Positions 4,905 to 6,740 of a stretch of DNA of 64,000 nt are shown one piece after another. The notes beneath the pieces are model-generated. The model was not told where the DNA came from, ran no database searches, and saw only the letters and a list, made by a program, of their open reading frames with translations. The position numbers were made by a program, and so were the translations under genes. How positions within the stretch are numbered: the stretch's first letter is position 1; every line of letters starts with the position of its first letter. Origin of the DNA: Nitrospirota bacterium (GTDB lineage: Bacteria > Nitrospirota > JACRHL01); contig JAOUFN010000009.1 in NCBI GenBank assembly GCA_029858285.1, forward strand, positions 1 to 64,000, read 5' to 3'.

Positions 4905-6173
4905 TCACGCCGTCCGACCGGGGAACCTGAGCACCTTGGCACCGGCCTTGAGTTCGTCCAGGTAGTCCGCCCAGCGCTGCATCATCTCGCGGCGCTCCGG
5001 CAGGTGGGATGTCCGGTTGTACGCCCGGCCCAAGGGGTCGCGCACGGCATGCGCAAGCTGGTGCTCGATGATGTCCGGGCGCACCCCCAACACCTCGTCC
5101 AGCACGGTACGGGCCATGGCCCGGAAGCCGTGCGGGGTCATTTCGTCATTGGTGTACCCCATGCGCCGCAACGCCACCAGCATGGCGTTGTTGCTGAGGG
5201 CCTTTTCCGGGGTGCGGCCACCGGGGAACACGAACCGCCCTCCGCCGCTCAAGGGGTGAAGCTCCCGCAGAATATCCACGGCCTGCCGCGCCAGCGGCAC
5301 CAGATGCGGCTCCCGCAGTTTCATGCGCACGGCGGGAATGCTCCACGTGGCTGCATCCAGATCGAACTCGGACCATTCGGCAAGGCGCAGTTCACCGGGG
5401 CGCACGAACACCAGCGGGGCCAGTTTGAGGGCGGCACGCACCGGGTAGAACCCACGGTAGGCGTCAATGGCCCGCAACAATACCGCGATTTCCTTGGGGT
5501 CGGTGATGGCGGCCAGGTGGGTTTTCCGGGCCGGTGGCAACGCCCCGCGCAGATCGGCGGACGGGTCGCGGCTTCCCCTGCCGGTGGCGATGGCAAACCG
5601 GAACACCTGCCCGCAGTTCTGCTTGGCCCGGTGCGCCGTGTCCACCGCCCCCCGCTCCTCGATGCGCCGCAACACGGCAAGCAGTTCCGGCGCGCTGATT
5701 TCGTTCACCGGACGGGTGCCCAGCCAGGGGAAAATATCCCGCTCGAAGCGGCGGATGATCTTCTCGCTGTGGGAAGGCGCCAGACCGGAGCAGTGCCGCC
5801 CAAACCACTCGCGGGCCACCTCTTCAAAGCTGTCCTCAAGGGGCAGCCCCTGTTCGATGCGGCGCTTCACATCGAGTAACTGGGCCTGTTGGGCCTTGGC
5901 CTCCTTGCGCACATCGCTGGGGTCGGTACCCGCCGCCACCTGAGCCCGCGCCTCATCCGCCTGTGCCCGCGCCGCCTTCAGACCGGTGTCAGGGTAGGTG
6001 CCCATGGAAAGGGTCTTGCGCCGCCCGCCGATGGAATAGTCGAAGCGCCACCACTTGGCGCCGTCGGGGCGGATCAGCAGATAGAGGCCGTCACCATCGG
6101 GCATCCGCCAGGGGGACGGCCTGGATTTGGCATTGCGGATGGTCGTGTCCGCCGGGATCAGATATCTGGCCAC
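4905..6173 (-). CDS. int: P4-type tyrosine recombinase (integrase)
   Basis: This 422-residue site-specific recombinase inserts and excises the element at ssrA. The N-terminal DUF4102-type arm-binding domain covers about residues 1-90 (GLYLLIRPDGAKWWRFDY, then KTLSMGTYPDTGLKAAR). The core-binding SAM-like domain is near 115-220, and the catalytic domain follows. The conserved residues are visible: Arg in VRPGELRLAEW, His-x-x-Arg in TPHGFRAMA, His in IEHQLAH, and the nucleophile Tyr in AYNRTSHLPERR. The frame is open 225 bases further up, but the GTG at 6173 has AGGAGG six bases before it and gives the family's normal length. It sits 184 bases from the tmRNA 3' end. It looks intact. Confidence 0.95.
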   Translation of the reverse strand: MARYLIPADTTIRNAKSRPSPWRMPDGDGLYLLIRPDGAKWWRFDYSIGGRRKTLSMGTYPDTGLKAARAQADEARAQVAAGTDPSDVRKEAKAQQAQLLDVKRRIEQGLPLEDSFEEVAREWFGRHCSGLAPSHSEKIIRRFERDIFPWLGTRPVNEISAPELLAVLRRIEERGAVDTAHRAKQNCGQVFRFAIATGRGSRDPSADLRGALPPARKTHLAAITDPKEIAVLLRAIDAYRGFYPVRAALKLAPLVFVRPGELRLAEWSEFDLDAATWSIPAVRMKLREPHLVPLARQAVDILRELHPLSGGGRFVFPGGRTPEKALSNNAMLVALRRMGYTNDEMTPHGFRAMARTVLDEVLGVRPDIIEHQLAHAVRDPLGRAYNRTSHLPERREMMQRWADYLDELKAGAKVLRFPGRTA

Positions 6174-6185
6174 CGTGCGCCTCCT

Positions 6186-6274
6186 GCAGTAACTTTGCTT
6201 TGCAGTAACCCGGAAAAGCCCTGTTACTGCCAAAGTTACTGCAAAAACCCCCGGATGTCCATGGCTGTTACTGT
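6186..6274. repeat. Cluster of five GTTACTG repeats upstream of int
   Basis: The heptamer GTTACTG occurs five times in about 90 bases. Two copies are inverted (AGTAAC at 6189-6194 and 6205-6210) and three are direct (GTTACT at 6224-6229, 6236-6241 and 6268-6273). Several copies share the longer form GTTACTGCAAA. The cluster lies between the integrase start and the attachment site, where arm-type integrase sites or AlpA/excisionase operators are expected. The binding protein is inferred, not shown. Confidence 0.7.
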
Positions 6275-6288
6275 ACGGGCCTGGACAC

Positions 6289-6323
6289 AAAAAACCCCCG
6301 GAACCGTGAGATTCCGAGGGGTT
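6289..6323 (-). terminator. Rho-independent terminator downstream of ssrA
   Basis: Read on the minus strand, CCCCTCGGAA pairs with TTCCGGGGG (one bulge, one G-U) around a short loop and is followed directly by six T residues. It lies just past the tmRNA 3' end but on the element side of the presumed attachment site, so the element may have supplied a terminator to the gene it interrupts. It also insulates int from tmRNA transcription. Confidence 0.7.
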
Positions 6324-6356
6324 ATGGACTTTCCGGGAGGTTCCCGGATTCGTTAA

Positions 6357-6740
6357 TGGTGGAGGCGCCGGGAATCGAACCCGGGTCCGAAGATGCATCC
6401 ACCGGGGTTTCTACGTGTGTATTCTGTGTTTGAAGTCTCGCCTCACTCCAGGCCCACAGGCAGGCCAGAAGCAACGCCAGCACCCTGAAATCTTACCGTT
6501 CCGCAAGGTGCCCGCGAAGACGGCCAGCCCAGTAAGTGACGTTCCTTCCCGAAGCCCGGGCGACAACGGGGGGAACGCCGATGGCCGTAGCCACCGGTGA
6601 GCCGACTACCTATTTCTAGGCAGCCAGTGCGTATGCAGGCTCGTTGGCACTTGATTGTTTCCGGTTTTTTTACGAGGCCAACCGGAGACCTCGACACGCT
6701 ACCCCGGTTTCTCTCACCCCCGTCGAAACCTTTCGCCCCC
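6357..6740 (-). ncRNA. ssrA: tmRNA (one-piece)
   Basis: The 5' end GGGGGCGAAAGGTTTCGACGG and the 3' end GGGTTCGATTCCCGGCGCC-TCCACCA are the classic tmRNA termini. The 7-bp acceptor stem GGGGGCG/CGCCTCC forms with one G-U pair, and CCA is encoded. The tag frame at 6648-6616 reads A-N-E-P-A-Y-A-L-A-A followed by TAG, and is preceded by the usual A-rich stretch. Length is 384 bases, close to the normal 350-400. tmRNA rescues stalled ribosomes with SmpB and marks the products for proteolysis. The gene is not split, unlike alphaproteobacterial forms. The 3' end serves as the attachment site of the neighbouring element, which has preserved a complete tmRNA. Confidence 0.97.

Follow-up and report, generated by a model that had tools for sequence, protein, structure and literature searches.

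When an integrase gene lies immediately behind a complete tmRNA gene, the question arises of which of the two, the host gene or the integrated element, the short stretch between them belongs to, and whose transcription terminator is found there. The locus considered here is in a 64-kb window, by which we mean the whole stretch of DNA that was analysed.

Anatomy of the ssrA-integrase locus

The ssrA gene occupies positions 6357-6740 of the minus strand, with its 3' end at 6357. ARAGORN calls a tmRNA over this interval, with the tag ANEPAYALAA, and Rfam RF00023 matches it along the complete model (1-374; 202 bits, E 4e-81). A second ARAGORN tmRNA call, at 5898-6452, overlaps both the integrase and the end of ssrA and is spurious. 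Downstream on the same strand is a tyrosine integrase of 422 aa (4905-6173), which the family profiles place in the P4/CP4-57 type. It contains the domains Arm-DNA-bind_3 (PF13356), Phage_int_M (PF22022) and Phage_integrase (PF00589), and reaches 225 of 434 bits against NCBIfam NF007246, which is under the family cut-off. The start codon, read off the sequence, is the GTG at 6173, with AGGAGG ahead of it at 6180-6185; the ATG at 6398 in the ORF list was rejected, since the longer frame would enter ssrA. The initial annotation of this DNA described an integrase close behind an intact tmRNA gene, and this is borne out. Its figure of 184 bases for the gap is the difference between the coordinates, and the number of bases between the ssrA 3' end and the integrase start codon is 183.

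On the upstream side of ssrA, positions 6875-8909 encode two LemA-family proteins and an Rce1-like (CPBP) membrane protein. This flank is considered to be backbone, because its DNA matches two genomes of the same family, G001 and G003, in the same order.

Counting from the end of ssrA, the first feature is an array of three 10-bp direct repeats (TCCGGGAACC/TCCCGGAAAG/TCCAT; 6320-6349, minus strand). It occupies +8 to +37, with TCC at +9, +19 and +29, in line with the position-fixed consensus of 68 relatives described below. From their sequence, the repeats are probably arm-type sites of the integrase. They might instead be sites for AlpA (excisionase), or a signal in the RNA, which we think rather unlikely. 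Excisionase sites are described as direct repeats spaced by one turn of the helix (PMC7498355, in part), an alpA gene is present in the element, and the first two repeats can form a hairpin in RNA. However, the repeat unit, (R)TCCAARNA, is similar to the IntS arm consensus TGKTGGTATC read as its reverse complement (PMC11963761, in part), a likeness that suggests integrase arm sites, and the array is located between the core and int, which is the position of P' arms.

Next comes a predicted intrinsic terminator (6289-6320, minus strand), with a stem at 6320-6295 followed by TTTTTT at 6294-6289. The hairpin has 11 pairs and a loop of 4, so that the stem with six T residues first noted between ssrA and int is confirmed. 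A terminator scan of the locus found 1 terminator, against a mean of 1.0 in shuffled sequence, and therefore the hairpin alone is no statistical surprise and its meaning has to come from comparison. The folding of the terminator stretch has z = -2.64, and 2 of 200 shuffled sequences fold equally well. It is the comparative position, and not the hairpin itself, that makes the ssrA terminator significant.

Behind the terminator there is a putative second set of sites (6253-6285, minus strand), consisting of TCC at +72 and +102 and CAGTAAC at +84. A single copy of CAGTAAC occurs at +83, +84 or +94 in six of the seven close relatives checked. A weak candidate promoter for int, TGGACA-17-TAACTT (6233-6261, minus strand), has 8 of 12 bases matching and is under the scan cut-off. 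The same test in the relatives was near chance, with promoter matches in 14 of 68 against 7.7 in shuffles. Just upstream of int there are four copies of GCAGTAAC, two on each strand (6186-6242). These are all the copies in the 64-kb window, and they lie within 57 bases, while four copies anywhere were reached in 2 of 100 shuffles. The cluster is perhaps an operator, or a group of further arm sites.

The genes to the left of int are all on the minus strand. They comprise an ORF of 251 aa (3889-4644) with no family match in the profile searches, an AlpA-type regulator that is a probable excisionase (3610-3810; PF05930, E 1.2e-20; phrog_2790), an AAA_25 ATPase or replication-type protein (2031-3686; PF13481, E 4.3e-38; phrog_10729), and an ORF of 135 aa (1627-2034), again with no family match in these searches. 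The locus thus has an Arm-DNA-bind_3 integrase, an adjoining RNA 3' end on the same strand, and alpA and a replication gene near int, all features of the P4/CP4-57 type. The P4 satellite phage proper carries the helper-dependent phage genes psu, delta and sid. Transposon debris follows at 376-1405, in the form of a TnpV-like fragment (376-858) and the N-terminal part of a transposase (HTH_Tnp_1; 1136-1405). Base 1 of the window is also base 1 of contig C40, in an assembly of 57 contigs that is 99.5% complete, and the degenerate transposase and TnpV-like fragments (window 1-1450) may perhaps explain why the assembly breaks within the element.

An element extending to the left had been predicted, flanked at its other end by a direct repeat of the tmRNA 3' end. 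The alpA and replication-type genes in the window fit the first part of this prediction, in which case the far end would be beyond the start of C40. The repeat itself was not found: the 57 contigs contain no second copy of the 27-base ssrA 3' end at up to 3 mismatches. A 17-base core of the ssrA end, at up to 2 mismatches, occurs at nine places in the assembly including its own locus, none of which qualifies as the far end. Five of the eight others overlap tRNA genes, and at C7:157286, C7:198982 and C31:102931 the next bases are unlike the RNA end. One match to the end of ssrA elsewhere in the genome, at C53:10390-10448, was rejected as a far attachment site, being an intact tRNA-Ala(GGC) gene with an orphan cassette (see below), which by eye sits beside an OmpA-like gene.

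Comparison with relatives was also suggested at the outset. In G003, the ssrA gene has a terminator-like hairpin behind it and then an OprB-type porin gene. Using these neighbours of the G003 ssrA to look for the flank of the empty site, no ssrA fragment was found beside either the genome's own rho (C15) or its own porin homologue (C26). In G001 (L038, 8383-16053), the array, a hairpin and the opening codons of a different integrase come after ssrA, and beyond them are an outer-membrane efflux-type fragment (under the family cut-off) and RND/CusB-type efflux genes. As far as its sequence goes, the ssrA site of G001 holds a different, truncated element.

It is possible, though we put it at somewhat below an even chance, that the island is a decayed remnant, in which the integrase and the first genes survive, the other genes and the far attachment site having been lost by an IS-mediated deletion. 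The lack of a second ssrA end in the assembly and the transposon debris near the contig end would fit such a loss. On the other hand, the reading frames of int, alpA and the replication-type gene are open and span their family profiles, and contig breaks are expected at repeats, which makes absence from the assembly a weak argument. For an island that is still complete, the far boundary would lie beyond the start of the contig.

Trailers and far ends in relatives of the integrase

Relative loci were taken as the best 80 matches from named genome contigs (48-71% identity) and the best 80 from viral contigs. A total of 115 were examined, these being the 80 genome loci and 35 of the 80 viral ones, the latter chosen by eye for upstream sequence with some usable ones omitted. 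The contig titles are those of various proteobacteria and of Geobacter/Desulfobulbus-type genomes, and the best relative locus among the matches listed (L091) is itself at an ssrA. In 84 of the 115 loci a tRNA or tmRNA 3' end is present upstream of int on the same strand, and in 79 of these 84 the gap from the RNA end to int is 165-221 bases. The proposal that ssrA is the attachment site is supported by this arrangement, since the integrases of the relatives are placed likewise at the ends of ssrA and tRNA genes.

Removal of 3 trailers with a gap above 300 bases and of 13 near-duplicates reduced the 84 linked trailers to 68 non-redundant ones. These have three 10-bp units in common, fixed at +8 to +37 from the RNA end. 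T is found at +9 in 54 trailers, C at +21 in 56 and C at +31 in 45; an exact TCC at +9, +19 and +29 is present in 22, 35 and 22 of the 68, respectively. TCC peaks again at +72, +82 and +102. Of the 68 trailers, 49 have a terminator, compared to 1.5 in dinucleotide shuffles, and the other 19 have none by the same rule; the stem starts at a median of +34 (quartiles 34-35). The ssrA locus studied here conforms closely, having an array score of 17.1, a stem start at +34, and TCC at +9, +19, +29, +72 and +102. The controls comprise 33 trailers. Five of them, which all belong to ssrA genes in other members of the phylum, score above 10 and themselves bear the array; the other 28 score -6.9 or lower. 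On account of these five, the 95th percentile of the controls is surpassed by only 17 of the 68 linked trailers. A terminator is found in 13 of the 28 array-less control trailers.

Whether the cassette of array and terminator is carried by the element can be judged from the far ends of these islands. A far copy of the RNA end was found in 8 of the 84 linked loci, as an exact repeat of 15-23 bases located between -24 and +1. ARAGORN calls no complete RNA gene at any of the eight; the far copies are fragments, and the suggestion that they are merely other tRNA genes was rejected. On the int side of these loci, the trailers score 12 to 28. At seven of the far ends, by comparison, the in-register scores of the trailers are -10 to -19, and the best scores with a shift of up to 3 bases allowed are between -17.1 and 0.7. 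The eighth far end (L136) scores 4.9 at best and has a similar trailer behind it, which looks like a second element in tandem; this locus is an element at tRNA-Leu(CAA) of Herbaspirillum sp. GW103. With seven of eight far ends lacking the array, and the eighth tandem-like, the conclusion is that the cassette is element-borne. The view that the terminator belongs to the element, put forward from the single locus, is in this way supported from its relatives. By eye, six of the far ends (L127, L141, L159, L162, L179 and L181) have their own hairpin with a T-run, which is presumably the native stop.

It is worth adding that the far copy is one base short just before CCA in five of the eight (L136, L159, L162, L179 and L181), so that the RNA gene would be changed by excision at these loci. 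Comparable changes of the gene end on excision are listed for ssrA elements of the P4 type, CP4-57 among them (Table 1 of PMC10107115, in part).

We regard it as quite probable that the ssrA locus is the integrase-side junction (attL) of an integrative island of the P4/CP4-57 type, at which the 3' end and P' arm of the element have replaced the gene end and trailer of the host. The crossover would fall in the region between the T arm and the 3' end of the RNA gene. Integration would exchange the last bases of ssrA for the element's own copy, and at the same time the host trailer for the P' arm of the element, which would carry, in order, three arm-type sites at helical pitch, the intrinsic terminator, the second group of sites, and int. 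The element's terminator would then stop transcription of ssrA, the native one having been displaced to the far end, and would be expected to shield int from the ssrA promoter. The int gene would be under a promoter of its own, repressible by integrase bound to the neighbouring arm sites. In terms of function, binding of integrase to the repeats, termination of transcription at the hairpin and insulation of int are all inferred.

Array-bearing RNA genes with and without an integrase relative

The array is also found elsewhere in the genome. With the matrix derived from the relatives, ssrA and the tRNA genes Ala-GGC, Leu-GAG, Met-CAT, Glu-CTC and Leu-CAG score 12.9-19.4, and the remaining RNA genes score -1.7 or lower (44 entries in all, one being a spurious tmRNA call). 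In the 5.8-7.8 kb downstream of the five array-bearing tRNA genes there was no match to seven tblastn queries, namely the integrase itself, five relatives and CP4-57 IntA, a set with which other kinds of integrase would be missed. A different kind of repeat follows tRNA-Gly(CCC) (L057; C31:110071-110143), behind which the 14-base TCCGTATCGATCAG is repeated directly, four times in full and once in part, unlike the 10-bp arrays.

These five genes speak for the opposite reading of the locus, according to which the array and terminator are a trailer of the host's own, used at several RNA genes, behind which the integrase simply inserted. All five have near copies with no integrase relative downstream, and the tRNA-Ala(GGC) trailer is identical to that of ssrA in 32 of 33 bases. 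We nevertheless consider this reading improbable, for four reasons. The tRNAs concerned are unrelated, and the common trailer starts precisely where each of them ends, which is what site-specific recombination would produce. Seven of the relatives' eight far ends lack the array. Among orthologous tRNA genes of the three genomes compared the array is polymorphic, being present at tRNA-Ala(GGC) in this genome and in G001 and absent in G003, and present at tRNA-Leu(CAG) in this genome and absent in G001. Finally, in the three genomes the integrase is seen only behind array-bearing genes.

The counts behind this last point are as follows. Array-bearing RNA genes number 6 of 43 in G001 and 3 of 43 in G003, partly at other genes than in the present genome, as scored with a matrix whose training loci may include genomes akin to these two. 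In the three genomes pooled, the array is found at 15 of 129 RNA genes. An integrase is present within 900 bases behind 6 of the 15 array genes, against 0 of 64 array-less genes (Fisher p 1.8e-5, in a 2x2 table that leaves out 50 of the 129 genes with less than 800 bases of downstream sequence). At the other 9 of the 15 arrays no integrase relative is detectable within this distance. Some array-less orthologues of array-bearing RNA genes have hairpin terminators.

Full-length integrase matches are located behind the arrays of the present ssrA, of tRNA-Val and tRNA-Leu in G001, and of tRNA-Phe in G003. Shortened ones are found at tRNA-Phe of G001 (aligned to residue 314) and at tRNA-Val of G003 (a stub, residues 4-124), and at the ssrA of G001 an N-terminal integrase remnant is all that is visible in the sequence. 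From full-length through partial to stub, this reads like a decay series. The five tRNA genes with an array and no integrase relative in about 6 kb are probable footprints of lost elements.

A more general reading of the element-borne cassette is that this integrase subfamily carries it in a fixed form, as three phased arm sites plus a terminator, on which the host RNA gene would come to depend; after decay of the element, the cassette would be kept as a permanent terminator, and the orphans would mark past integrations. We judge the case for this reading to be evenly balanced. Islands insert preferentially at tRNA and tmRNA genes, which are strongly transcribed, and the layout suggests an element that spares its target, by supplying both the RNA end and the stop, and that keeps the target's promoter off the integrase. 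If the orphan cassettes are domesticated terminators, they would allow extinct integrations to be counted by a simple mark in the sequence, and what remains after the loss of an island would become directly testable.

Comparison with known systems

The closest counterpart is CP4-57 of E. coli K-12, which is also at ssrA. As here, a P4-type integrase adjoins ssrA, an array of TCC sites and a terminator are present between the two, and the gene order intA, yfjH, alpA, yfjI (DUF3987) parallels that of int, alpA and the replication-type gene. The gap from the RNA to int is 203 bases in CP4-57 and 183 here. The systems differ in that the CP4-57 array is 11 bases further on, scoring 15.3 there compared to at most 9.5 for array-less controls at their best offset; in that yfjH, which separates int from alpA, has the opposite orientation, whereas the corresponding gene here is on the strand of int; and in that the far end of CP4-57 is known, whereas the present island is read from one side only. 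By contrast, the E. coli leuX/intB locus has a terminator and no such array (score 5.0), so that the combination of array and terminator is a rule for a subfamily and not for all P4-type integrases.

For arm sites, the attP of IntS from ICEMlSym of R7A is similar in having a 10-bp arm motif like the present one and in the position of int next to attL, and IntS lowers its own expression. It differs in having five arm sites in 283 bp, and the word terminator does not appear in the main text of that report (PMC11963761, in part). In KplE1, intS at argW is similar in that arm sites overlap the int promoter behind the tRNA end; it differs in that its arm motif has TAAA, and the passages concerned describe no element-borne terminator (PMC2951348, in part).

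Titles and the beginnings of abstracts in the open-access literature, a scope that leaves most subscription papers outside, gave no description of a fixed array-plus-terminator or of orphan copies. For the enterobacteria, Williams is said to have described in 2003 that each element at ssrA carries one of a few conserved sequences, apparently the ssrA terminator. Compared to those elements, the present arrangement is found at many tRNA genes, has an array fixed in position, and occurs in orphan forms. A stop brought by the element is already in print for enterobacterial ssrA; the fixed array and the orphan footprints are less expected.
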